From: Amyelois transitella
Lineage: Eukaryota; Arthropoda; Insecta; Lepidoptera; Pyralidae
DNA length: 64,000 bases
Reading direction: 5' to 3'
Assembly (NCBI RefSeq): GCF_032362555.1
Contig: NC_083508.1
Location: 4,431,001-4,495,000 of the forward strand
The notes under the pieces were generated by a model. That model made no database searches. It worked only from the letters and a program-made list of their open reading frames with translations, and was not told the DNA's origin. The first letter of the stretch is position 1. Every line of letters begins with the position of its first letter. This document shows, piece after piece, positions 4,560 to 46,324 of the stretch. Position numbers and translations under genes: made by a program.

Positions 4560-4826
4560 GTGCCGTGTGGTTCCCGGCACCAATACGAAAAAGAATAGGA
4601 CCACTCCATCTCTTTCACATGGATGTCGTAAAAGGCGAGGGATAGGCTTATAAAATTGCGATCCTTTTTTTTAGGCGATGGGCTTGCAACCTGTCACTAT
4701 TTGGATCTCAATTCCATCATTAAGCAGAGCAGCTGAATGTGGCCATTCAGTCTTTTCGGGACTATTGGCTCTGTCTACCCCGCAAGGGATATAGACGTGA
4801 CTATATGTATGTATGTATGTATATGT
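4560..4826 (+). mobile_element. SINE-like element, near full-length copy
   Basis: The copy begins with the family head GTGCCGTGTGGTTCCCGGCA, runs through the conserved blocks GGCGATGGGCT and CTGTCACTATTTG, and ends with TCTACCCCGCAAGGGATATA followed by a (TATG)n tail. Near-matching flanks, ACAATGTTCTT (4547-4557) and ACAATTTTCTT (4827-4837), look like a target-site duplication with one mismatch, as expected of target-primed retrotransposition. At least a dozen copies or fragments of this family occur in the window. Confidence 0.8.
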
Positions 4827-12617: not shown

Positions 12618-15600
12618 ATGGTGAAAAAATGTTGTATAAAATTTTGTAAAAGTGAATCTTATGCAGGTTGTGGGATATCGTTTCACAGGTAAGCCAATCG
12701 AAAACAATTTTAAATATTGACAAGTAGGGTGTCCCGGCGATTTATATTTTGTTTGTATTGTACCACGAAAGGCAAACAAGCTTACGAACAATAGACTGTA
12801 AATGATAATTGAGTAATTGGGACTATATCATTTAAATATTTTTAAGAACATTTCAGTAGGTACACGTTTAACTACTGACCATTGCAAACTATAAAGTAAA
12901 TGTTATAATTATTGCAATGAAATACCATGTTACCATGTTGAGTACTATTTCAAAACACATTATTACATATTATTTGTGGTCACAAGCCAGAAAAATATTT
13001 TGATTGTGTGATTATATTCCTTTCAGTTTTCCTAAAGATGGAGAAATGAAACAAAAGTGGATAGATGTTATTCCAACGTCGCAAAAAATAACGAAAAACT
13101 CCGTTGTCTGTAGCCGTCACTTCAAAAAAGAAGACTTTTATGAAGCTAACTCGCGACAGCTATTAAAAGTAGATATAATACCATCTGTATTTCCATCGGT
13201 ATGTATGCGAAGCTAATACATATTTAAGCAAGGAACGTCTACTGCTTTAACCCCCGACACAAAAAGAGGGATGTTTTAAGTTTGACCGCTAAATGTGTCT
13301 GTGGACGTGGCATCATAGCTCTTAAATGAGGAAACTGATTTAGATGCATTTTTTTTATTTGCTAGCTAATTGTTATGCAATGGTTATTAGCTATGTTTTA
13401 TCAAAATCAGTTTAAATTTAAAAAATGCGTGGAAAATATTTCATAGCCTAAATTATCTACGGTAATTGATAGATTTAAAGTAATTATTAGCTAAATTGTA
13501 GTTTATCGTGAGGCGCTTAAAAATTATACAAAAAAAGTCACAGTCGTTCCAAAGTTAAAGGGAAAAAACTGGGATTTTTAAACGTCTGCGGACGTGACAC
13601 CATAGCTCTTAAACGGGTAAACTGATTTAGATGTGTTTTTTTTTATTTACTAACAAAATTTTATGCGATGGTTCTCAAACATGTTTTATCAAAATCCTTT
13701 TAGTGTTTAAAAGTAATAGACGAAAACTGCGATTTTTAAACGTAAGCTAATCTTTGTGTTGGGGGTTTTTTTTAATTTTCAATTTATAAATTATATGCTT
13801 GTTTTATTACCTGGAACGATTTCTAAAATTATTTCTCTGTTAGAAACCTACATTATCCCTGAATGCTATACGCATATAAATAGTACTAGCGTGAGCGAAG
13901 CCTCAGGCGGAAAGCTTGTACTTTGTAAAATTATTGTTAGCATAAAAACTACTTAGTTTATTTGTTACTTACAATTAACAATTATTACAAGTAAATAATA
14001 ACAATAACATTGAATAGAAAGTCATATAGTTTGAGATTTGCACTTATTTGATACTTCTTTTGCAGGTGGAAAATAAAAATATAAATGTTCTGAGTAACAT
14101 TATTATACATCCAACATTTCAACCTATTGGAGAAAGTTCTTCAGGTACTCCAGGAACCTCAAGAGAATCTTGCAATTCTGATGTCGACACACCACCTGCT
14201 AAAAAATTCTGTGGGGACGTAAAAGAAATAGCAGTCCAGACTACCATCAACTGGAGTCCATCAAAAGATATGCTCAAGCGTAAACTAAAAGTTTTAAATC
14301 AAAAGTTGAAAAGGCGCGATATTCGTTTGGACAGTTTAAAGTCACTTCTAACAATTTTAAAAAAAAGAAGCAGCAATTTTGATGAGGTTGAACATATGTT
14401 AAAAAATAATTTTATGGAAATTCATAAGCAAATGAATAAAGATAAAAGTAACAAAGGCGTACGATATTCAAAGGAACTCAAACAGTTTGCTTTATCTTTG
14501 TACTTTTATTCTCCAAAAGCATATCTGTTTCTTAGAAATCACACCATGTTACCTCACCCTGCAACCTTACGCAAAATGTTAGCGACTCACGAGTGTAATG
14601 TAGGATTTATGGTTGAAGTTTTCGAATACTTAAAATTGTCGGTATCCGAAAATGATCTCGAAAATGTTGCTTTAATATTTGATGCCATGTCTATTAAATC
14701 AGAGGAAGTTTATGATAAACATAAAGATAAAATATGGGGTTATGTAGACTATGCTGGAATTGTACCATATGATTCTGAATGTTTAGCCACAGAGGTCCTT
14801 GTTCTTCAGATTGTGTCATTTAAACGCAAATTCAAATGTCCTATCGCTTACTTTTTTATTGACAAAATTTCAGCTTCAATACAGGCACAGTTATTAATCA
14901 CAGCAATTAACATGTTATATGATATCGGTATAACTGTTCGAAGTCTTACATGTGATGGGACTGCTAGTAACATGGCCACATATGAAAATTTGGGATGCAG
15001 TTTCAATTTTCCAGAAATTATTACAAACTTTAAACATCCAAGGAAAGAAACTAAAATTCATTGTATATTCGATCCTGTTCACATGCTCAAATTATGTCGT
15101 AATGTATTTGCGGAAAAAAACTTAAGTTCTGGAAATGGGCAAATTGAATTCAATTTTGTCAAAAAATTACATGATTTGCAAGATAAAGAGGGTTTAAAAC
15201 TTGCAAATAAAATAAACGCTGCCCATATTAACTTTATGGGTAAGAAAATGAATGTGAAACTGGCCGCTCAGACTTTGAGTGCGTCGGTTGCAAATGCTAT
15301 AGACTTCTTACGTGTTAGCAATAATGATGAATTCAAGAACAGCGAAGCTACTACTGAATTTATCAGAACTATTGATAGAGTTTTCGATGTCTTAAATGCC
15401 AAATCTCCTTTAGGAAAGGGCTTTAAGTCCCCATTGCGGCTTAATAATAAAGAATATTGGATGAGAATCTTCACTGAAACCCGAGAATACTTATCAAAGC
15501 TAAATGTAGAAAACAAATCGATTCTTTTACATCGGCGAAAAATGGGAGTTTTAGGATTCATAGTGGATACATACAGTGTTACTAACATAGCCATGGATCT

Positions 15601-16444
15601 TTTAGTTGAAAACAGTTTAAATTATTTCTTGCCTTATAAAATATCTCAAGATCAGTTGGAAATGTTCTTTTCTTGTGTCCGAATTCAAGGCGGTGGTAAC
15701 AATAACCCTAATGCCTTACAATTTAGGTTCGCTCTGAGGAAATTACTCTATCGTAATAGTATTAAGCCGAGTATGAATGCTAACTGTACTGACGATGAGT
15801 TTGAATTATCCCCAATTTTGGAATTCCGTAGTGAGAAGCGATCTGTGATTGAAGCTCAATCGTCTGATCCTCATGAAGAAGAACAATTAGATGCTTTAAT
15901 GTATTACGTTGAGTCAACTACCATTTCCGATTACAAGATGAATGTCTTGTATTATATAGCAGGTCATTTTGTAAACAAGATGTTAGATAAAATTTCATGC
16001 CAGTACTGTCACGATGCTTTAGTGATTGCTAAGGAACATTTTGATCACACATATTTCGTAGATATTACGAATTTCTCATCTTTTACAGCCTTTGTAGATA
16101 AAGGCAGCTTAAAATATGTATCTCGCTTTGCATTTGAAGTGGTAAAGAATGCTGAAAAATTGTTCCTTTCAGAAATAGCAAATGGTTCTATAAAAGATAT
16201 AAGAAAAAATAAAATTTTGATGTCTTTAAAGCAAATGTTTCTCACAAAATTTAATAATTTGTTCTTACACCCTATTGAAAATTATGAAGAACCACATGAG
16301 TTACAGCTGGTAAAAACAATAGCTAATTATTATTTAAATTTAAGAATATTTAATCATCTGAAATCGAACTCATTGAAGAATTTAGGCAGTAAGATAGGCC
16401 TGCGTCAAAAACTCCACAAAACAATTTTATTTAGTCATGTGTGA
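12618..16444 (+). CDS. THAP-domain protein with P-element/THAP9-type transposase
   Basis: Three exons, 12618-12688, 13027-13198 and 14066-16444, join in frame to about 873 residues. An N-terminal THAP zinc finger has C5, C10, C52 and H55, with FPKD and a following Trp, and it is split by intron 1. The large third exon has a basic coiled-coil-like stretch and then the P-element transposase fold. Candidate RNase H-like acidic residues are D287 (IFDAMSIKS), D378 (TCDGTASN) and E613 (SQDQLEMFF), followed by a Gly/Asn-rich segment (GGGNNNPNALQF) as in THAP9. The family binds DNA through THAP and excises or integrates DNA. The frame has no stop or frameshift. I could not find inverted terminal repeats or a target duplication, so it may be a domesticated single-copy gene or a P element whose ends I cannot see. 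The start is the first ATG and sits at the canonical THAP N-terminus. Confidence 0.85.
13249..13767. mobile_element. MITE-like element with terminal inverted repeats in intron 2 of the THAP gene
   Basis: The left end AACCCCCGACACAAAAAGA and the right end TCTTTGTGTTGGGGGTT form imperfect inverted repeats (AACCCCCRACACAAA). Inside are two diverged direct copies of a block of about 130 bases with CATAGCTCTTAAA, ACTGATTTAGATG and ATGTTTTATCAAAATC, at about 13300-13410 and 13595-13700. No transposase ORF is present. Confidence 0.6.
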
Positions 16445-16514: not shown

Positions 16515-16810
16515 TTTTACTCATACATACATACATACCATATGTATCACGTCTATATCCCTAGCGGGGTAGACAGAGCCACCAGTCTTGAAAAGACTGA
16601 TAGGCCACGCTCAGCTGTTTGGCTTAGTGATAGAATTGAGATTCAAATAGTGACAGGTTGCTAGCCCATCGCCTAAAAGACGAATCCCAAGTTTATTAGC
16701 CTATCCCTTAGTCGCCTTTTACGACATCCGTGGGAAAGAGATGGAGTGGTCCTATTCTTTTTTGTAATGGTGCCGGGAACCACACGGCACTGCCGGGAAC
16801 CACACGGCAC
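16515..16810 (-). mobile_element. SINE-like element, full-length copy
   Basis: This copy of the common family lies on the minus strand: the CATACATACATACATACC tail is on the left and the head is on the right. It starts about 70 bases after the THAP gene stop. The head is partly duplicated: TGCCGGGAACCACACGGCAC occurs twice in tandem (16771-16790 and 16791-16810). Confidence 0.8.
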
Positions 16811-17111
16811 TCTTCAATCTTTAATAAGTACATTTTTGATACCTAAATGAGTAGTCTACCTATTAAAATATAATATTATACAAATATACTTTGTTCCACG
16901 AAAAATCAATATCATGGACACTTTAATAGAAAGAAACAAATAGCCTCTGTACTACCCATCCTACTTGGACCGTCTTTTAGTCAACAGTGCTCAGTCCTGT
17001 TATTATTATTACGTCCATGCAGATACCTATTTCAGATAACATTACATATTTCCATTCACCTCATTAAATAATTAATCAACCGAACTAAATCACAAACATA
17101 AAAATAAAAAA

Positions 17112-17374
17112 GTGCCGTGTGGTTGCCGGCACCAATACAAAAAAGAATAGGACCACTCCATCTCTTTCCCATGGATGTCGTAAAAGGCGACTAAGGGATA
17201 GGCTTGCAAACTTGGGATTCTTTTTCAGGCGATGGGCTAGCAACCTGTCACTATTTGAATCTCAATTCTATCATTAAGCCAAATAGCTGAACGTGGCCAT
17301 TCAGTCTTTTCAAGACTGTTGGCTCTGTCTACCCCGCAAGGGATATAGACGTGACCATATGTATGTATGTATGT
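17112..17374 (+). mobile_element. SINE-like element with target-site duplication
   Basis: This is a full-length plus-strand copy from GTGCCGTGTGG to the (TATG)n tail. A perfect 12-base direct repeat, ATAAAAATAAAA, flanks it (17098-17109 and 17375-17386), supporting insertion by target-primed reverse transcription. Confidence 0.85.
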
Positions 17375-17386
17375 ATAAAAATAAAA

Positions 17387-18825: not shown

Positions 18826-21800
18826 ATGCCTGAAGACATGGGTACAGAACTTAAAAAGGTTCTAGATGTCTTAGAAGATGACACATTTGACACACCAATA
18901 TTAAGACATCAGAAATACAAAGTGTTACAAAATGTATTAGACAGTGATGCAGAATTAAACTTAACTGATATACAAAGAGTGCTAGCTGTTTGCTCTCATA
19001 ACATAAAGGATGATAAGAAATATAGTGGCCATTCACTAAACATTATTTCTTCAATTCTAAAAAGAATTAAGGTGAGACGGTTGTTCTTATTAAAGCAGAT
19101 ATATGCAAGTAGTTAACAATTTTAGTTCTTATTTTTTTATTCATTTAATTGTCCACTAAATCAGGATAGATTTTGCATATTACTTACATACATAAAATTA
19201 CACCTCTTTCCTGGAGGGTTAGGTAGACACAACCTCTTTGCACTTGCCAAGATGAACACAGCATACTTTTTTTATGCTTTTTTAATATTCATAATAACTT
19301 AATTAATACTATAATGCAAGAATACTCTTTATCTCACCTTTTAGCAGGACATCTTCATTCTGCTTATTCACCTATTAATTAAATCTCACAATAATTTATC
19401 TTGGTGCAAGTTCCACCTATTTTATAAAACTTGCCTTGCATTTTCAGACAGGCCAATTTGCAACAGTACCTGATCTCTTGCCATCAGCATTAGCAATCAT
19501 TAAAATAATGAAAACCACAGTTTTGGTAAGCAAAGCTGAGTCTTTGCAGAACTTGTGCTTTGATACACTCATGTTATACCCTGATGAAATACTGGTGACT
19601 ATTGCTACTTCACACATAGCGGATGTGATTGAACTCTTTCAACTGTACTGTCATCAAAGAGTGTCTACGGATGCTAGATTGTTGGTAAGTATGCATATAA
19701 TCCCAATGTCAAAAGGTGGTGCCATAAATATATTAATCATTTTGTGCTTGAACAATAGAATATTTTCTTACCTATTTTGGATTGAAACCAGTTTGCCAGT
19801 CCAGCAAGAGTTTCGGGACAAGCACTAGTTGTGTTCATCCCAGGTTTGATAATATAATAAATAAATATAATAAATATTTCTGGTTTTTCATTTACAGCCT
19901 AGTGCTTTATTGACAAAGCTGCTTAAAATACTGCCACAAGAAAAAAGAACAATATTTGTTAAGGATAACATTGCGACTTGGTTCACAAAATTTATACCAT
20001 CAATTTTGAATTCAGAGTTGTGTGGTTTGAATAATGTTAAACATTTTGAAGCTCTGGAGTTGTTGGCAGAGGAATTGCAGCTTATTGAATATTCTGATAA
20101 CCCACACTGGTGTATACTATTTGGATGTATTTATAACCCAAAAAAGTAAGTATGTGCACCTATATTTAATTAAAGGTTCATAAAATTTGGAATTAATTAT
20201 CTGAGGTTAATAAACAAATAGTTTTTTGATAATTTCTATAGCAACAGCTAGTAAAAAATTAAAGCATGCAAGTGGTTGAGTTGGGTTTTATGGATTCTTG
20301 TTTTGTTTTAGATATCCGCTTATCATGAAAAGCCTTTTAGATGCTGGCAATCCCTATTGGAACAGATTATGGATTGCCTTTATAAAATTGTTAAAAAATC
20401 AGATCACACGTAGCAATACGCAAGGAAGCCCTATCAATGCACTTTTACCAGTTGTGGAATCGGCATTTAAAATGGATGTACCAAATAGATGCCGAGCATT
20501 TAAATGTTGGGAAGTGCTCATAGACAATTTTTCTAAAGAAACCAATGAGGTTTATATAGCCAAGAGATTAAAGCTGTTAATAATACCGCTCCATTCAAAT
20601 AACGCTAAAGTGGAGGAAACTGCAATAGCCAAATTGAACACATGGTGGCATTTGATTAGACAGTTTCAAAAGAAATTAAATAAATTTTTTGATTCTGTTG
20701 TAATAGCTTTTTTGAATTTCTGCTTTGGTAAGAATGTTGTGACACCGAAAGCTAATTTTGTACCTGGATTGATCTCGAATAAAGTTAAGAAGATGTGCAT
20801 TGAAGCTTTCATTAATATTGCTGGTCATGTGGGCTGTTCCGGATGCTGTAGTGTACCTGGATTGGATGTTAAACTGATGAATACTCAGGAGTTGGTATGT
20901 TATTGGAATAACTTTGCATACTGCCTTCGTATTGTTATAACTATAGCTGCAGATAATGCAGTTGGTGTGACAACACAACAGGTGCAATGCTTGTGGAAGT
21001 CCTTTGTGTTGACTATTGGAGAGTTGCCCGAAAACAATGTCAGAAGAGACATATTTAATGAGTTACTGTCGGTGCTGGAAAATTTGACACAGGTTAGTTA
21101 AAAGATATAACCACAGAATATATGAAAGGACTAGAAATATTATAACAGACAAAAGAATAGCATGCTATTTTTGTTTATATATAGTTGCCCATATAATAGA
21201 TAGATATATGAACCAGGTATATATTACTAGAAAGTCTTTTTCTGTGGTATGTTTATTTCATATAATAATAATAATAATAAATGTATTTATTCAAGTGACC
21301 ATTGACTCATTTTTGTTAGTCATATGCAAAGGTAAATAATTTTATGTTTTTGAGGTATGCCGTCATTGACTGATTAACATGTATCATGTTTTCCTTTTAT
21401 ATGTTTTAAATGTTTTGCTATAGTGTACTAAATGTAGCTTTCAGTGGACTTTCCGAGTCACGTGAATATCAACTTAATCTACTTCTTCAAGTATTAACAA
21501 ATTTGTTTATAATAAGCAACAAGCTTGTTTTAAAGAAATTATGCTCTTTAAATATGGTAGGTACTTATCATTTATTTATTCCAGGTTGGTCAAAATGCTG
21601 ATGATGCTGGAAACATTCAGTTGCCAAGTGTGGTACTAAATTTAATTTTTACATTATTCACTAATGACAACAAGAAAATTATGTCTCTTCTCACTTCAAT
21701 GCAAGCAAATGAGGGTCCAATGTTTAAAATTTTGTCCATAATTTTAGGACCAATATCAAAATATCTATATGATAAGTAAGTTCGTTTTATTACAATTATT

Positions 21801-24800
21801 CTTCAATTTCTTGGTATTATATATAGATAAGATAAGAATTAAAAAAACAATAATATCTTTTAACACTTACAAATGTTATATGTATAAAAAGGGAACAATT
21901 TTATGCACCAGTGCTTAAAACAATAGAATACCTATTTAGGAAAAAGAATACGACTTGGCAAACCACTTTTCTGCCTGTTTTTTTATTTGTATTTGTATAT
22001 TTTATATTCCAGGAATGATAGTGCAGGTTCAGTTAGCAAGTTGAAACCTGTTACAAATTGCATTTTGAACGAAAAAGTGTGTGATGTGAGCAATATTGTT
22101 GATGATTGGTTGATGAAGAATTTATCACCCAATGATAATACACTCACGATATGGACCGCCTTAGCTCAATCAATACACGAAAATAGTACTAAAAAAGACA
22201 CATTGAATCTGAAAAACATCTTATTGTGGCCTTTGCAAAACATGGGCAGATTAACTGATGTTAGTATGTTTATTTTATGTAGTTTATATTTTGACTAGTA
22301 AAAATTATAATTTAATGAGCCCAGACCCCAAGGCTTAATGGCAGGCGGTATAACTGGGAGCACGCCAAGATGAGAGAGATATTAGTAATATTTAATGCTG
22401 TCTAGCAGTCTATAATAAAGAATGGCACAAAGTATCCCTTTTCACTTTCATCACACATTGATATCATGAAATTTGAATTATACAAAAAAAACTTTTTGTT
22501 TGTTTAGTTGAAAACTTTTGATTGCGCAGAAAAATATGAAATCATACAAACATTCTTAAAATTGTTAAATTATAAAATATTAGTATATCAGTATTAAATT
22601 TTGTTGCGTTTATTTTATTGTGAACATATTTTTTTTTTATGTTTCAGCTCGAAATGGCATCATCGGCTTGGTATAATCTATATATTTTGGCTTATACAAA
22701 CAACAGCAGTGTCGATCACGAAATCTCGAAATTAATTAAAACCATGAAAATCACAGACAATAATAAAGTTTTTGCGCTAAATGCGTCACTAGCCATTTTG
22801 AAATTAAAATTGGTACAAAGCAATAGTGAGTTCTCTACCTTTTCTTAAATATTATTGAGAGTGTTTGACTTCGAAATGTGCAGTAAATGATTAGAAAAGG
22901 CATTCTTAAAGTAATCTATAGAAAGTTGAATAAGCATAAGACTCTACCCAAGACCCTCTCATTGTAATCTTGATGACTATAGTTGCTATCTATTGACCAT
23001 TGTAAAAACAGTGAGACAGTATTGACTTTCACAGCAAAATTATTGCATTTTAATTTGATCTATTTAAATTTAACCAGTAGTATAGAAGTTATTTTTGCTC
23101 TTTAATTTTATAAATAAAGAATTACGTTTTAATATTTTAATAATGCGATAGTTTTGTTTGGTCTTTTATAAGTCGATTTACGTTAATCTGATTTGTGAAG
23201 TTTAATTTCAGAGAATTCGTCTTATTGAATATTTAAAACTTAATGTGGCAACTTGGGTATGGCTTATCACTTTTGTAGATCTTTTGATGACTCTTTAGTA
23301 ATATGATACTGCACAAAGTTAAATAGATTTAATGTATTGTAAGGATTTAACATTTCTAATAATATTAATCATTAGTTTCAGGAAATAACTTTGAGGAAGA
23401 CATACATGTAATTAAGGATGCTATGTCAAAGTTAGAAGATTATATATGCATCGGAGAAATCCTTCTAGTTCTTGTAGATACCCTCATACTTTTAACAAGT
23501 AAAATTGCAGAAATTCCCAATGATAATGCCTCGGAACATGCACTTATAACTACAATCAAAATTTTGACTTTTTTGAAACAACAATCACCAGATGTAAGTA
23601 ATACAACTTACATACTTACATATGATCACGTCTATATCCCTTGCGGGGTAGACAGAGCCAACAGTCTTAAAAAGACTGATAGGCCACATTCAGCTGTTTG
23701 GCTTAATGATAGAATTGAGATTCAAATATGACAGGTTGTTGGCCCATCGCCTAAAAGAAGAATCTCTGGGAAAGAGATGGAGTGGTCCTATCGTTTTTCT
23801 ATTGGTGTCAGGAACCACACGGCACAGTAATACAACTTACAACTTACAGCACACAATGCTTATTAATTAATTTCTTTTAAATATTTTTGCATATTTGTTA
23901 TTATTTCTTTTTGTTCCAGGTTGTCAAAGGATTACTTCAATTTATAGAGCAAGTACACAAAAATATTCGTTCATTTCTTAAAAATACGAGTTCTTCACAA
24001 TTGAAACAAAAAATTATAAATGAATTGGTAAAATACGCAACACTTGATAGTAAACACCAGCATACAGAAATCACCCTTTTTGTTAAGTCATGTCTGGGTG
24101 AGGTAGAAGAAACTGATAAATCGTTTTACACAAGTATGGAAACAATCTTAAATAGTTTAGAAAAGCAAACAGACTTTAAGAAAAATATTAATTTTACAAC
24201 ACCAGTCACTAAAGCTATAACTAGAAAAGCAAAGAAGAGGGAAGCTAGCATAGTAAATACTGTAGTTGAGAATGGGGAAGAGTATGTTGTAGTGAAGTCA
24301 AATTGGAAATTCAATCCTAGAAAATTGACCGAAAACCAGAAGGAAAAATTACAAAGAAAAAGAGAAGATATACCAGCTCTCTATCAAGATTTATCTCAGT
24401 CTCAAGATGAGTTTAAAATGATAACATGGAAAACCGATTCCCAAGATAGCTCAACAACAAATAGTTCAAAATCAAGTTTAAAAACTGGCGAACAACCGGC
24501 TTCTATTCTTAAATTTATGCCTAGTTCGGATGTTGTCCCTAAAATAATAGAAAATATTTTCGCTGAAAGTACTCCCAAATCTGACGAGACAAATGAGACA
24601 GTTCATGAAGCTAAAAAGAAATTAGAAGAAGATAATACGCTAAAATTGAAACAAATGTTAAACAAAGATACAAAATCGCCTCGTGTAGCTTTAAAAGATA
24701 GAGTTTTTAGGAATGTGAGAAATTTAATAGAAAAATCATCACTTACATCAAATTGTAAAGATTTATCACACAGTTTAATTCAAATAGAAAACGTCCCTAA

Positions 24801-27800
24801 AACACCAGTCGCCACAGAACTAAACGTTGCTAAAGAAATTAACTCTGCTCCATCAAAAATTAACACAGAAAGACCATCCCGTGTGAAAAGAAAACCAAAA
24901 AAATTTGATGACACTGAGTTGTTTGGCTTGAAAAAACGAAGAAATTCTTCAGGTCTAAATGATTCACAAGTTACAAACGAATCTCAATCTCAATCGGACG
25001 ATGATGATGATAATGTTAAAGCCAACAAAAGTGTAGACTTAGCTTTTAATAATGAAACGCAGACAAATGATGTCAAATCTGAATTGAAAATATGTGACGA
25101 AGATTTGAATAAATCTAAAGAAGTAGTTCAGAGTGGTGTTGTCTCTTTGCATGAAAATGAGATTGGTATTAATGATTCTAATGATAATGGTAAAAATGAT
25201 CCATTTAAAATTGCAGTAACAATGATTTCCCAAACAGAAAAAGTTGATGACACAAGCTCAAAATGTGCACAGGATAAAAAATCGTTGACAACTCCAAAAT
25301 CGGTAAGGAAGAAAGATCCACAAGAGACTTCGTCTAAAAAAAACACTCTTAAGAGATCTAGAATTGAAAAGGAATTGGCAATAGATACTGTTGAAGGCCA
25401 TCCATTTTTGAAAACAAATACAGGTAAAAGATTAACTAGGAAAAATCTTATCAATTCTACCACCAGGAGAACCAGTTTAGTTGATAAAATGAATAAATCT
25501 ATTAAAACTCCTATTAAACAAGATAAGAAAAAAGATAAAGAAAAGACTAAAGATGGCTCAGAAAAAGAGAAAACTAAACACGTATCTGCTTTCGATAAAG
25601 TTGAGAATCTGCAAAATGAGAATGGAGTAGGAACAGAAAAGGAGATGATAAAAGATGATTCTCCGAAAAACAAAGAACTACCACAAGACAGAAGTGTTGA
25701 ATCCATGGAAAGTGGTCCTTGCTCAGAGGATATAATCGAAAGTTCTCAAGATTCAACAGTGACTACCATAAGTGTTAAATCAGCAAAACCAGTGAATAAG
25801 AAACCATTAGTAGTTTTAGAAAATCTTCGTTCACTTGATGAATATGTCGGGAAAGAATTAGAAACTCAAAATTTGTTGGAAGTAGATGCTCCAAATGTAA
25901 CATTTAATGAGAATAAAGAAGAAACTAAAGAGGATATAGAAATACCACAGAATAAAACTGCTGAAGAAGTTCATAACGAAATAGATTTAACTGAAACTAT
26001 GGATACAGAGCCTTTTGATAGTGAAATTGTAGATGAGATTATTGTGATACATGACGATGCCCCTATAATATCTCTAGATACAGACTTTAGTGTCGTGGGA
26101 CCAGAAACACAGGCACTTGCAGAAGCCGATACATTGCCAAATAGTATTGATGATTCTGCAGAAATTCCGACAGATAAATCTGTTGTTGAGTTAAATAGAA
26201 GTACAGTTGATAAATCAGATTTAAATAAATTGAATATGGAAAATGACATCAAAGCGCAAGTTGTTACAGAATGTAATAAAATTGATAAAGATGTAGACAT
26301 TACTGTACACGAAACAATAGAAGTACCATCAGAAAAAGATAATGACGCATCTTCTCCATTCAGAGATGATGTTCAAAGAAAACAGGATTTCTTAGATAAT
26401 ACATTTGAGATATCGCCTATCAAGACTATGAGTCCTGATAGAGATAAAAAATCACCATCGCCAGAAACCAGTAATGATTATGTTGTTATTAAGTTGTCTT
26501 CGCCAGTGCAAAGTAATGGGGAGCCATTTGAGAAGTTCGATTCGCCGGAAATATTTACTGAAGAGAAGATATCGCCAGAGAAACGGGATCAATCGCCCCC
26601 CAGAGATGCTGTGGCTGTAAATACAAGCCCGAGTTCAAGTTTATCTTTAAAGAAACATCGACCTCAAGTAAGAAGTGGCGGTCGCGCTGCGCAAATGTTG
26701 GGTCTTTGCGTGCCTGATCGATTACAGACCCTTAAAAGTTCTGAAAGGTCAGATCTTGAGGAACCTAAAAGGAATAGTAGTACATTGTCTACACCTGCAA
26801 GAAGGAATTTGAGAATGTTATACAATTCTGTCGCCGATAATGGTGAAAATTTAGAAGACAATGAAGACAGTGAGAATTTTTTGAAATTAAAAAGATCTTT
26901 GCCTACAGCAGATAGTAGCCCATCCGTACCTATACTGAAAAGGAAATTGGTTGATATTACTGACGAGGCTACAGTTTCCCCTGCCAGCAAAGTAAGTGTA
27001 TTATGTATTAAGTATAAAATTATTAGTTCTTAAAGCAAAAGATTACTTGCAGTTATTGCGATATAATTCAGTGGGAGATTTAGAATTATAAGTTGTGTTA
27101 TTCGTTAAAGCTATTCTGGCCATTGTTGCTCATGCCATCCTTCATCTCCAATTCAAAGTGAAAATGCATGAATTACTTGTGGCTAAAATATTAATTATCA
27201 AGGAGCTATTGTTTGTGTGGATATTTATCCATGTAGGTATATTTTGTGTAAATTCTGTTTTAACTTTACAGAGGAAACGAGTTAGCTTTCACGACCCTCC
27301 AGTATCAACCACAATATCGGTACATAAGTATATAGAACCCTGTGGCATTAGATCTCCGCAAAACTCTGCACTGAAGCGTCAAGAGAGACAATTGAGGTCA
27401 CAGTCTAATATGAAGTCTCAAAAAAAACTTGACTCTGTATTTAAGTTGGATACAGTTCTAAACAAGGCTGTTGAAAGTTTTGACGACTCTGAAAAGAATT
27501 TGAGCTCAGAAGATACTCAAATGACTTCTTTGGATGAAACTCCAGTGGCAGAAATAGTCAAGACCAGTGATCTTAATGATACAGACCCAATATGCCCTGA
27601 TTTAGTTCATTGTACTGACCCGATAGATGCTATCGCTTCAGAGTTATCCTCTCCAGCCACAAAGTTAATGTTTTTGAAGGAATTAGAGGGTAAAATTGTG
27701 ACAATCGGTGATCTGGCAAAGATGACCGAACTGGAAGTTAATAGGTTATGTATTAAGGCTCCTAAAGTAAAGATAGCAAAGAAGGTTTTGACTGATTATG

Positions 27801-28839
27801 CTTTGAAGATGGTTCTTGTGGATCAAGAAAAACAAATTGTACATGAAGCAATTGAAATGCAAGAACCGCCTAAAGAAATTGTACCTGAGACTCAAAGATG
27901 TGATGCTGAAATGCAAACTAATAATGTAGTGTATAGTGATACGGAAATGCAGACAGATATCAAAGACTTTGCGTCGGTGGATATGCAAACTGATAATAAA
28001 GCCACAGCACAGAGCTACACGCAAACAATACAATCTGGAAGCAATTCGACGGAATTTGTAATTGCGTCGTGTCTGACTGAAGTACGTATATTTCTAAATT
28101 TGATATATTTTTTGTAGAAATTTTGTCAAAGGGCATTGCCGATTGCATTTGCTGCCGTCATGTCGTCAGCATGTAAATGATTTCATGCTGCAAAATATTT
28201 GGCATAGTTTTAAGGTTGGCTGTTTAATGCATGAGAATTTGCAATTTGACGTTCATTGTTGAATTTTCGTTAAACCATTCCTTTCCGGAAACCGCACGGC
28301 AAAAATATACATTCAAATAGTTACATCTATCACTTGCCCACGTTCAGTTCAGCAAAAATATAGTTTAAAAATATTTTTAATTTTCTCTATTTTCACTTAC
28401 TCATTTCTTCTCTTCCTAAAAGGTCTAAGGCATCTGAAATATTCATAGATTTTTCATAGACCTGATAGCAAATTTTGATCGAATTTAGTATTGATGTCGT
28501 AGACTTGCAATTCATTCTAACGAATTTATTTTAAATTTTTATTTTATTTTTCAGCGACCAGATTTCATTGAAGAATTGAATAAAAAACTGCCAGATACAT
28601 CGAAACAGGAGATTGTAGATAGCGTATCATTCGATGTTCTCAAAAATTCATTCCTGAATAAAATCACCCACGACAATAGTTCGGGTGTAATAAATGATGT
28701 ATTAGAAAAGACTGTATCTGGTGATACAGATTTGAGGCGTTTCCAAACATATCTCAGTAAAACATATAAGCCTAGAGAACTTATCCTATTTTGCAGTGAG
28801 TTATTGCACAAGATACATGATAAATCTATGCTCAAATGA
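18826..28839 (+). CDS. Rif1: RIF1, telomere-associated protein / replication-timing factor
   Basis: The model has coding exons 18826-19071, 19448-19684, 19898-20145, 20312-21092, 21585-21775, 22013-22259, 22648-22825, 23382-23593, 23920-26991, 27272-28081 and 28555-28839, about 2168 residues, with all phases consistent. The first 780 or so residues are helical and HEAT-like. The large exon (23920-26991) is a charged, disordered region rich in SQ and SP sites. PILK (1784-1787) and RVSF (1808-1811) form a PP1-docking pair straddling the last large exon boundary. The final exon is a compact C-terminal domain (starting RPDFIEELNKKL). RIF1 recruits PP1 to counter DDK at origins and acts in break repair. 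A 21410-21556 open stretch inside intron 4 is not used in this model (see findings). A SINE occupies intron 8. Mammalian RIF1 is somewhat longer. Confidence 0.88.
21255..21285. repeat. (ATA)n microsatellite with a LINE-tail-like flank
   Basis: An ATAATAATAATAATAATAAA run in RIF1 intron 4 is followed by TGTATTTATTCAAGTGACC, which resembles the 3' tail of a non-LTR element. Confidence 0.5.
23613..23825 (-). mobile_element. SINE-like element in RIF1 intron 8 with a 16-bp target duplication
   Basis: This is a minus-strand copy, with the (TATG)n tail end on the left and the GTGCC head on the right, internally shortened relative to other copies. It is flanked by perfect direct repeats AGTAATACAACTTACA at 23597-23612 and 23826-23841. 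The left repeat starts at intron position +4, inside the GTAAGT donor that follows the exon ending at 23593. Confidence 0.9.
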
Positions 28840-41740: not shown

Positions 41741-43039
41741 AAAGTAGGTATGTAACAACAATCTTTTCAAGCATTATTTTAGTTTTAACGTAATTGAAAA
41801 AGAAATAAAAAAATATTAATTTTTTTTCCAGATATTAAATTGGAGTTAGTATCTATATTTTTACTTATTATTATTGAAAATTACTATCTACCAATAGACT
41901 ATATGTTTAAGACACACACACACAGACAGATACTTTGTACTTATTTATTTTATTTTAAAACACATAATTATTCCTATTTACACTTACGTAAGCAAGTGCT
42001 GTTCATTTTTTCGATTTACGTTACGGCCTTATTGAGTAAATAGCATTTTAAGTACTTATGCGTGGTGACCTTGATTGCGACTATAAATATAAAATGCTTT
42101 GTTATTGATATTGTAAAATAGGAGGCACTTTTTATGCAAGTGCAGAGCATAACTATTCACCTTTACACAGACTAACACAGATTCAATAATAGAACAGAGT
42201 AACTTCAAATTAAATAAAGTATAGGTTTATTGAAATTTGTTCAGTGTAATGTATTGATTCACCACTTATAAGAATTCAAATTAAATTAAAAATAACTATG
42301 AAGATTAGGTTCCCTTGCAAAGATTACAGGGGTAAGACCTTTATACCCAGTCCAGGTTCGTGGCCATATTCTGAACCTCCAGAGAATTTAGGATGCAAAC
42401 GGGACTAACGCCAGGAAGAAGAAGAATATTATATTGACAATTGAGTTTGAATGATGAGCGGATAAACGATAATACACTTGAAATCTTGAACCATGCGCAT
42501 TACAGGCAAACCGCTGCGCCGCGGAGGTCGGCTTTGAATGTAATAAAGTTCTATCTTTCCTTAGTTGAAATTCGTGATACATATATGATATGTGTATCAT
42601 TTAAAATAAAAATAATTGAACTACATATATTCCAATTAACCAGATCACGACAACAATCGACCTTTGTTTTACTTAAGTATGTGGGCTTTGCACGGGGAAA
42701 TCTAATCTATTATTACTATAAACTTATTTTTAACTGTATGCTGTGGATCGTAGGAGGCAAACAAAGGGCAAAGAAATGACCACCTGTGAACTTTGATACA
42801 ATTTGTGCCATGCTTTTGTTGGATTATAAGATAAACATACGTATTGGTTTGCCAGATACACATAAGATCATATAAATCAATATGAAAAGTCGAACGCAAG
42901 ACAGAAAGTTTTAATTCAAATATACTGTGTCTTTTTTAATGTCTTGTAAACTAAATTGACAGAAATAAGCTATTAAATCATTTATTAAAATAATCATAAA
43001 CATAGCAAGTAATAAGTCCAGTGGAGTAATAGTAGTACG

Positions 43040-44208
43040 AGATCCGGCTGCAAAATCACTACGTTCATCGCGTAGTTAATCAAACTCACATTTTAACATA
43101 CATTTATGAATAGGATAATACATAGATAATAGGGTGCCAGTCAATAAGTGGCCGCAAGTAATTTTAATTAAATTAATGTTAATTAATTTTCCAAAAAAAA
43201 TTTCGTTCACTTGTTTTTTAAATAAAATATCATCCACATCATAGAAATGTATGTAAAGAATTCGAAAATCAATGGGTGCCGTTACACACTCGGCCGCAAC
43301 TACTACGCAGCCAGGTGTAAACAGGTAATATTTTGGTCTATTTATACGTTCATGTCGTACACGCATGTTTTTTATATCAAATTAAAGCTAATTTTTTTTT
43401 TAATATGATGATATATCGCTGCCTGTGAATAAATGGCCGCAAATTAAGGTTGCTAGCTGTTAAAAACTCGAGGTATCCGAGATAAAGTGAAAGAGAGTTA
43501 GCGCGTAACGCCACTTGTTAGACAAGGATGGCGAGTACCAGCTGTGCGAGTATTTGAAGCCATTGCGCACGCGTATAGATAGGGTTCTCAACAGTGCAGC
43601 TAAATTATTCTTATATACTAACCTTCTTTTTGAGCTCGTTATACACAACGTTGTTGATATCATTTATTTATTGAACTTGAAAGTGTTATTACGTTGATAA
43701 AAGTAATATTAACATTTTAGAAAAATGAAAAAGTGTTTTTTGTGTAGTAAAACTCTTTCACTTTATCTCGGATACCTCGAGTTTTTAACAGCTAGCAACC
43801 TTAATTTGCGGCCATTTATTCACAGGCAGCGATATATCATCATATTAAAAAAAAAATTAGCTTTAATTTGATATAAAAAACATGCGTGTACGACATGAAC
43901 GTATAAATAGACCAAAATATTACCTGTTTACACCTGGCTGCGTAGTAGTTGCGGCCGAGTGTGTAACGGCACCCATTGATTTTCGAATTCTTTACATACA
44001 TTTCTATGATGTGGATGATATTTTATTTAAAAAACAAGTGAACGAAATTTTTTTTGGAAAATTAATTAACATTAATTTAATTAAAATTACTTGCGGCCAC
44101 TTATTGACTGGCACCCTATTATCTATGTATTATCCTATTCATAAATGTATGTTAAAATGTGAGTTTGATTAACTACGCGATGAACGTAGTGATTTTGCAG
44201 CCGGATCT
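43040..44208. mobile_element. Fold-back element with 456-bp inverted arms
   Basis: The left arm (43040-43495) and right arm (43753-44208) are inverted copies that look identical by eye, separated by a 257-bp unique loop. The ends are AGATCCGGCTGCAAAATCAC and its reverse complement. Imperfect pairing may extend outward to about 43033 and 44215 (TAGT...ACTA), flanked by TAG on both sides, but a target duplication is not certain. Each arm contains the same 96-codon open frame (43076-43366 minus, 43882-44172 plus). Its translation overlaps the repeated DNA motif and resembles no protein I know, so I do not call it a gene. No transposase is present, so it is presumably a non-autonomous long-TIR or fold-back transposon. 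Confidence 0.85.
43132..43442. repeat. Three evenly spaced copies of a 26-bp motif in each arm of the fold-back element
   Basis: Motif starts in the left arm are at 43132, 43274 and 43417, 142 and 143 bases apart. Each has the pattern of GTGCC or CTGCC, a variable stretch, then GGCCGCAA. Mirror copies lie in the right arm. The sequence between copies is not obviously related, so this looks like spaced binding sites rather than a simple tandem array. Confidence 0.75.
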
Positions 44209-46324
44209 TAGACTATAGCTGTCATCGGCAGACCACAACCGCAGTGCTTTAGGTTTTACAATACTATAATTTAGCAAATTAGGTATCATGGCTTACTCTA
44301 TTACAGCAAGCTGCTGTTTTATGATCCATTGAAATACATATGCCACCTCTGAAATAATTATACTAATAAAATTAAAGTTAAAGTCCATCAACGATTATCT
44401 AAATATTGGTCGAATAATGTACGCCGGCGGAGAGAGAATCGACAGATAATTTATTTATTTCAGCAAGACTCCGTGATAAATATTGAGCGCACGTGGCAAA
44501 AGAGTAAATGAAACGGTTTCTTATGGTGTCTGTAGTCGTTAACATAATGAAATATTGTGCTTTATATAATCTTCAATTACAATAAGTCGATTTCAAAGAC
44601 AGTCTGACTAAAATTGACCCTTGATTTTAATAAATACAGATGAATTGGTGTTATCTAACTAGGTCCATATCTGTGGTAAATACCGGGCTATGAGTTGGTA
44701 TTTGAGTTAACAGCTCAATCGTCCCAAAGCCAATAAAAGCAAGAAAACAGTTACCGTTACAGAGTTAGCAAAAAGTGGTTAATCACCCGCTGTTTGTGCC
44801 AAAGGCCGTGCCTTGGCTTTCTTTATCCGATCTCTTGCGAAATCTTTCAATGCATATTTAACATACTTTAATTTATTGGCTATTTTAAGCCTTCAAGTAT
44901 TTATGCAAAATACACAAGGTTTATTAATGGTAATTATGGTAGTTTAATATCTGCACTAAGGACGCGTGATGATAGAAGGTCTAGACTGTTATATATTTTG
45001 TGTTTGAAGCCAAATCTCTTTTTAAATGCATAATTGTGAAAAAATATTGTATTCTGACATTTGATTACAATCTGAATCGACATCGAATCATTAACAGGTG
45101 AGATGTTTTACAAATTCAAATTATTATATTGGATAATGTTACTCGATATTTTTCGACATATCTCTTAAATAGAAGATTATTAAGAAAATGCTAATTTGTT
45201 CAACAGTTATCATTAAAAATGCATTTTTATAACAAATTATTTCAGTTATTCCTCCTGTAGGACATAATTGCCTACAAACAAAACAACAGTCTATGCGTGA
45301 TGAGGCCACAGATTTGGACCACCCACCATAAATGATGTAGGAGTACCTACCGCAGTTCCCGGACCCACATTCCTTCCCCTAATTTTAAAGTATAGACATA
45401 CGAAACACTTTGAATTTTCTAGAAACAATAGAGTGTAGAATAATAATTAAACCTATAGAAAAAAACTGGTGGTTCCCGGCTCCACATTATATTTAAAAAG
45501 AAAAAGGTACTAATAGGGACAACTTAATGTTTTAAACTGATATTCAGATTTAAAATATAAAATACATAATTTGCTTTTTAAATTAAAACTATGACTTCAT
45601 GATAAAACTCATTAATATATAAAGGTCGTACTCACTTAGGTAATAATAAATCTTGATAAAATAATTATTTTGTAAGATTTTTTTTTAATTGGAATGATAA
45701 CACTCTTTTACGAAACCTTGTACGAAAAGTACCTACTTTTTATTAACACTTGCAGACGATGTAAGTATAGCTTAAGCGCGGCGCAGCATACCAATGGATG
45801 TGCGCCTTTACAGTTAATTAATATCTATGTCGATGGTCCATCTACACCAGCAGAACTCCTTGACCGGCTGTCCGTAGACTCGTGCCTTTCACTACCACTT
45901 TACCTGACGTTTTCTAACTATAACAGGAAAATTCTAGAAGCTTTTAGTAGAAATTATCCAAGAACTTACTGAATTTATGTTACAAAGTATTAAAATTAAA
46001 GTTGATCTAAATATATCTCATTTAAAGAATATGCTATCTTTGGTTTATAATTTTTTATAATGCCACTGAATTATATTTTATCTTTATTTTCTGTGCTGGT
46101 GGAAATCAATCTATTATTCGTAATACTTAACTAAATATTATTTATCTTCATACTAAAGGATCGACATAGATTGATAATTATGTAGTTGACGAAACATACA
46201 TATGTGAATAAACAATTCTCGTCCCTAATTATCTATGCTGATGCATTTACGTAAAAGAAAAGCTAAAAAAGCATCCCGGAAAATAAAGATGATGACGTCT
46301 GCTAAGGAAGGATTTTTTGTTAAT

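Follow-up and report, generated by a model that had tools for sequence, protein, structure and literature searches.

Galileo, a foldback-like element of the P superfamily in Drosophila, has long arms with repeated inner sites (PMC3688188) and is flanked by target-site duplications (TSDs) of 7 bp (PMC3573991), and P elements generate TSDs of 7-8 bp (PMC5199201). Tetris of Drosophila virilis, which its authors assign to Mutator, also bears long arms with repeats, and its published description reports no coding copy (PMC4079207). TSDs of 3 bp, on the other hand, have been described for Academ, Zator and EnSpm (PMC5199201, PMC10045372, PMC12730594). Here we examine a 1183-bp element located at positions 43033-44215 of a 64,000-nucleotide stretch of Amyelois transitella DNA (assembly GCF_032362555.1, contig NC_083508.1, positions 4,431,001 to 4,495,000, forward strand), referred to below as the window. 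This element is very probably a non-autonomous cut-and-paste DNA transposon with terminal inverted repeats and foldback-like long arms, and it belongs to a family of about sixty nearly identical copies that has recently spread over many contigs.

Results

The two arms of the element (43040-43495 and 43753-44208) are inverted with respect to each other and identical at 456 of 456 bases without a gap, as also found by BLAST, and they enclose a 257-bp loop (43496-43752). A first-pass annotation made from the sequence alone had described near-perfect 456-bp arms around a 257-bp loop, and its coordinates were exact for the arms. It had missed seven further bases at each end, a 3-bp TSD and three regularly spaced sites within each arm. 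The additional bases (43033-43039 and 44209-44215) differ between the two ends, so that the full element starts with TAGTACG and finishes with TAGACTA. It is flanked on both sides by the TSD TAG (43030-43032 and 44216-44218).

We searched the genome from which the window derives (327 Mb, 33 contigs). The 24-base end occurred 121 times, 61 in forward and 60 in reverse orientation, compared to 0 and 0 for a reversed-pattern control; 100 of the 121 places were among the matches listed. A search with 460 bases (43041-43500, comprising the left arm plus the first five bases of the loop) matched at least 41 places at 99-100% identity, including both arms of the window copy, with scores for the best 40 of 123 candidates. 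We read 59 copies, namely the window copy and 58 loci (L039-L096) drawn from the listed end matches and, for three of them, from the 460-base search; further copies exist. Both ends, defined by the outer 20 bases with at most two mismatches per end, were recovered in 52 of the 59 copies, the others being L062, L078, L081, L087, L091, L092 and L095. The heptamers TAGTACG and TAGTCTA, both read inwards, were paired in 50 of these 52 copies; L058 carries TAGTCTA at both ends and L060 carries TAGTACA. Matching triplets flanked 46 of the 52 two-ended copies (TAA in 17, TTA in 6, TAT in 4, others in fewer), with T in first position in 38 and A in third position in 35. That many dispersed copies share constant ends with inverted repeats and a TSD of fixed length marks a transposon with terminal inverted repeats, while arms of hundreds of base pairs with repeated inner sites around a small centre give it a foldback-like structure.

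The window contains the following features of the element.

43030-43032, no strand: left TSD, TAG; the same triplet stands at the right end, and the 3-bp TSD is exact in 46 of 52 two-ended copies
43033-43039, plus strand: left terminal heptamer TAGTACG, the true left end (heptamer pair in 50 of 52 copies)
43040-43495, plus strand: left arm, 456 bp (arm alignment, BLAST)
43046-43053, plus strand: terminal half-site GGCTGCAA, matching the inner box GGCCGCAA at 7 of 8 bases (box search with at most one mismatch)
43135-43157, plus strand: bipartite site 1, TGCC-N11-GGCCGCAA (motif search)
43277-43299, plus strand: bipartite site 2 (motif search)
43420-43442, plus strand: bipartite site 3 (motif search)
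43496-43752, no strand: loop, 257 bp, comprising the rest of a longer arm and the leader of the source frame, unequal through internal deletion (comparison with other copies)
43725-43754, plus strand: ten initial codons of the source frame (MKKCFLCSKT), truncated there by the deletion (L053, L075 and L049 retain more of the frame)
43753-44208, minus strand: right arm, 456 bp, matching the inverted left arm at 100% identity (arm alignment, BLAST)
43806-43828, minus strand: bipartite site 3' (motif search)
43949-43971, minus strand: bipartite site 2' (motif search)
44091-44113, minus strand: bipartite site 1' (motif search)
44195-44202, minus strand: terminal half-site GGCTGCAA (box search with at most one mismatch)
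44209-44215, plus strand: right terminal heptamer TAGACTA, the true right end (heptamer pair in 50 of 52 copies)
44216-44218, no strand: right TSD, TAG (TSD count over copies)

One copy, L040, matches the window copy in length and centre and is identical to it at 1179 of 1183 positions, with TAA instead of TAG as its TSD. The presence of the same deletion form at a second site with another triplet indicates that the deleted, palindromic form itself moved or was copied. In five of the 52 copies (L040, L064, L082, L093 and L094), the joined flanks align, on both sides of the insertion point, with a further copy of a repeat. Among the three inspected, the joined flanks of L094 aligned to L107 with no gap at the junction and a single triplet. 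BLAST of the window revealed no second copy of the element within it. An inverted duplication unique to this locus, or an assembly that reads through one arm, is hardly conceivable, as the dozens of copies lie on different contigs between different flanks, 46 of 52 have their own triplet duplications, their two ends are unequal and their centres differ. Two of the circumstances that the first-pass annotation named as refuting its reading, a single occurrence and misassembly by arm read-through, are thus excluded by the 121 places of the end sequence and by these duplications.

Differences between the arms of the copies were counted by pairwise comparison over arm positions 8-340, the multiple alignment being noisy on the central side of the poly-T run and wherever arms were rearranged. 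The mean difference from the arm of the window copy was about 0.29% over these 333 bp in the 52 copies, a slight underestimate, as a few rearranged arms span the stretch only in part. These copies harbor 88 variants in one arm only versus 6 in both arms, indicating that the perfect identity in the window copy is mostly due to youth. The both-arm variants occur in L050 (two, 16 bp apart), L063, L070, L071 and L077, and those of L070 and L077 recur in a single arm of another copy. That arm identity is maintained chiefly by ongoing arm-to-arm gene conversion or hairpin-templated repair, and not by youth, is quite unlikely. The six both-arm variants in single copies, which could hardly arise from independent mutation, and the single heptamer type at both ends of L058 argue for such a process, and the 88 one-arm variants and the heptamer pairs that retain their usual difference in 50 of 52 copies argue against it and largely refute it as the main cause. 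Arm-to-arm copying is real but rare, unless the source copy was already so changed, and since the end heptamers remain different, it seldom reaches the ends. The first-pass annotation had proposed a very recent insertion or ongoing gene conversion. The former agrees with the target duplications and genome-wide copies of a mobile family, whereas the latter holds weakly, for the six both-arm variants, with recency accounting for most of the identity.

Six occurrences of the motif TGCC-N11-GGCCGCAA lie in the window, three in each arm and none outside the arms, with spacings of 142 and 143 bp (mean of 0.00 in the shuffled window). Genome-wide, it was found 183 + 188 = 371 times versus 2 + 0 for the reversed pattern; among the 100 places listed, 96 have the family-type spacer or a one-base variant of it and 4 do not. 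When the three left-arm sites of the window copy were overlaid with 60-base flanks, the motif columns were identical at 12 of 12 positions, compared to 16 of 131 for the other columns, including 3 of 11 in the spacer, showing that the sites share little besides the motif. Allowing one mismatch, each arm has GGCCGCAA at element positions 14 (as GGCTGCAA), 118, 260 and 403; the remainder of the element is free of it, and the whole window contains 27 such boxes. From this arrangement we infer that the boxes act as transposase docking sites, one terminal and three internal per arm, as in Galileo. The eight candidate docking boxes per element provide a clear, testable set.

The arms of other copies extend up to about 535-549 bp (ungapped count), and the loop of the window copy holds the remainder of the longer arm on one side. 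The centres of the copies are differing internal deletions of one longer sequence, the 5' side of which carries an ATG-started frame, MKKCFLCSKTQNVLDFNEITFKKCFSMLMFRRNKKYKYCDIILTVESTNDFGYHRECMKKITV..., and the 3' side AATAAA motifs. Ten codons of this frame, which begins MKKCFLCSK, are left in the window copy, and more in L053, L075 and L049; the deletion joint of the window copy displays by eye a 3-base microhomology, CTC. The first-pass annotation saw no transposase. This stands for the window copy, and a complete source was not found among the places read, yet the loop retains ten initial codons of a longer frame. The element is thus non-autonomous, with longer remnants of the frame in other copies. 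We presume that the source frame encodes the transposase. Its first 63-76 residues gave no Pfam match above threshold, relatives of the frame piece were not found in viral contigs, and the end sequence had no match in the viral_contigs or genome_contigs collections.

A 170-bp piece of the frame occurs at seven genomic places, six in short or partial copies and the seventh in L104, a truncated copy. A protein search with the frame returned these seven places and four distant relatives at 36-39%. The 3' piece occurs at 36 genomic places, of which 33 lie within copies read and one, C32:1304357, is likewise a short copy; at the two unread places, C32:8046357 and C30:2942554, neighbouring loop matches are spaced as in short copies. 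Locus L108, beside a 3'-piece place without a loop match, proved to be a short copy too. L104 and L106 were rejected as sources, since no more than an arm or an incomplete arm and centre was found in them. The 5.9-kb pair at L039 was also rejected, being a family copy with an element nested in its right arm. This 4.6-kb nested element (L039:2131-6786) contains a 653-residue DDE_1 transposase frame, and its ends can be read as AGGTCAACC.../...GGTTGACCT bordered by TA, or alternatively as GGTCAACC bordered by TTAA. L105 was rejected for a similar nesting, in its left arm, of a 3-kb Harbinger-type element (L105:762-3781; ends GGCCTCGGTCTCGAA, duplication TTA).

One of the distant relatives, L107, is linked to the source frame over 64 residues (E 0.002), and the relationship may serve as a lead only. 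L107:21-4242 (minus strand) is a decayed gene whose product falls in a repeat protein family of arthropods, with a C-x2-C..H-x3-C finger at its head; named homologues come from two beetles, a moth, a wasp and two spiders, with no Pfam domain above threshold. Matches of this type are present at three places on contig C32.

The same 96-residue translation is indeed encoded in each arm, as previously annotated. It starts at an ATG inside a 101-residue frame that runs from stop to stop (43076-43381, minus strand, and 43867-44172, plus strand), and it spans two of the three sites. In 97 arms, after five rearranged arms were dropped, the distinct variants in the 96-residue frame were 56 non-synonymous, 14 synonymous and 3 stop, versus 685:186:47 expected from all possible single changes. 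The variant classes thus look neutral, with no sign of selection, and the frame is unsupported as a gene. A 90-residue predicted protein on a 1277-bp contig, 89% identical to the 96-residue frame, counts against dismissing the gene, and is probably the mark of a related element in another sample. Five frames of the arms and loop gave no Pfam match above threshold; one match (E 0.07) was below its cut-off.

A transcript of the element is predicted to fold as a single long, near-perfect hairpin (-847 kcal/mol, with no shuffle comparison at such length), and it may, as the first-pass annotation proposed, be a candidate source of siRNAs. Scans of the window with Rfam (gathering threshold) and for tRNAs came back empty.

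Elsewhere in the window, an uninterrupted 798-residue P-element-type transposase frame (14048-16444, plus strand) has Tnp_P_element, TNP-like RNase H and GTP-binding domains; an inverted-repeat search for its ends revealed none that was convincing among the 25 longest of 35 pairs. A 270-bp repeat lies in inverted orientation at 16515-16790 and 17111-17376 and is a common interspersed repeat. The two units are 93% identical, and additional copies, some of them incomplete, lie near 4560, 23606, 36584, 46330, 57734 and 63846. The region 20298-28117 (plus strand) begins with a Rif1_N domain (20298-21101) followed by large frames. Downstream of this domain, a 1048-residue frame (23887-27030) gave 35 matches, few of them named; the named relatives covering more than 6% of the query come from butterflies and a moth (Iphiclides, Pieris, Colias and Spodoptera), one being named Rif1, which points to a lepidopteran host.

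Discussion

The 3-bp TSD fits Harbinger-, Academ-, Zator- and CACTA/EnSpm-like elements or an undescribed group. Because the transposase was not seen, we file the family under no superfamily, the same outcome as in the first-pass annotation, which could not assign the ends. Mobilization by Academ, Zator or CACTA/EnSpm is a possibility that we regard as tentative: all three make TSDs of 3 bp as observed here, no transposase domain was seen in the family, and EnSpm families are described as ending in CAC..GTG (PMC12730594), where the present element has TAGT..ACTA. It is rather doubtful that the family consists of PIF/Harbinger miniature inverted-repeat transposable elements (MITEs) mobilized by a Harbinger transposase encoded elsewhere in the host genome. 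A T-W-A target preference is typical of Harbinger, and a 3-bp TSD with this preference was found here (TAA in 17 and TTA in 6 of 46). A Harbinger-type element also exists in the genome, namely the one nested in L105, which contains a DDE_Tnp_4 frame (E 8.6e-28) and a MADF/BESS frame. However, the ends of that element, GGCCTCGG..., are quite different, the TAGT terminus is unlike the usual Harbinger start, and the beginning of the source frame, based on its first 63-76 residues, has no Pfam match above threshold.

An undescribed superfamily with a zinc-finger-headed transposase lacking a Pfam domain, resembling L107, seems unlikely; it would combine a 3-bp TSD, a TAGT start, docking at phased sites and a palindrome that still transposes. 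The P-element-type frame in the window raises the question of a Galileo-like foldback of the P superfamily moved by this very transposase (14048-16444), and the long arms with repeated inner sites recall Galileo (PMC3688188). The TSD of 3 bp instead of 7 bp in Galileo (PMC3573991) and 7-8 bp in P elements (PMC5199201) makes this very improbable. The TSD of about 8-10 bp that marks Mutator-like foldbacks is likewise at odds with the 3 bp found here.

Several observations weigh against a non-autonomous cut-and-paste transposon with docking sites in its arms. A complete source with transposase was not found among the places read of the frame piece (7) and the 3' piece (36). The flanking triplets are unequal in 6 of 52 copies (L049, L063, L071, L082, L089 and L093), the joined flanks of L040 show small gaps exactly at the junction when aligned to L106, and those of L093, the third inspected, lack a matching triplet. 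Depletion of variants at the motif is weak, with 2 of 99 events (p 0.023) or 2 of 84 distinct variants (p 0.053) at positions 8-340 and 7 of 209 events (p 0.005) or 7 of 117 distinct variants (p 0.27) at positions 8-456, the motif being a putative protein-binding site. Ectopic recombination between elements could have produced the six copies with unequal triplets, and chimeric Galileo copies with non-matching flanks are on record (PMC3573991).

We propose that a source element, not seen in the assembly, would supply the transposase in trans. This transposase would recognize the TAGT ends and the four GGCYGCAA boxes of each arm, three of them as full TGCC-N11-GGCCGCAA sites, then excise the element and reinsert it elsewhere. 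Interrupted gap repair, template switching at the hairpin and short microhomologies could give rise to the variable central deletions and occasionally copy one arm onto the other. Long perfect arms on many contigs would lend themselves to ectopic recombination, with inversions as the outcome, and to the formation of double-stranded RNA.

The family is not named in our literature search on such elements; Repbase and Dfam lay outside that search, and we do not claim that the family is new. Insect MITEs collected in iMITEdb resemble it in being non-autonomous, with terminal inverted repeats and target duplications. Since iMITEdb dropped consensus sequences longer than 800 bp (PMC5199201), a family with copies of 1.1-1.3 kb would be left out. 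PIF/Harbinger elements share the 3-bp duplication with the family and differ from it in the ends of the L105 nested element. Galileo resembles it in arm architecture (PMC3573991) and differs in its long tandem unit, the inner sites here sharing little beyond 12 bases, and in that no THAP/P transposase is linked to the present family. Tetris is similar in its repeat-bearing arms and apparent lack of a coding copy, and differs in its TSD of 8-10 bp and in tandem repeats of about 220 bp that have turned into a satellite (PMC4079207). The A. transitella family is a young, near-identical foldback-like family whose 3-bp TSD separates it from the P- and Mutator-type foldbacks compared here, as far as their cited descriptions go.
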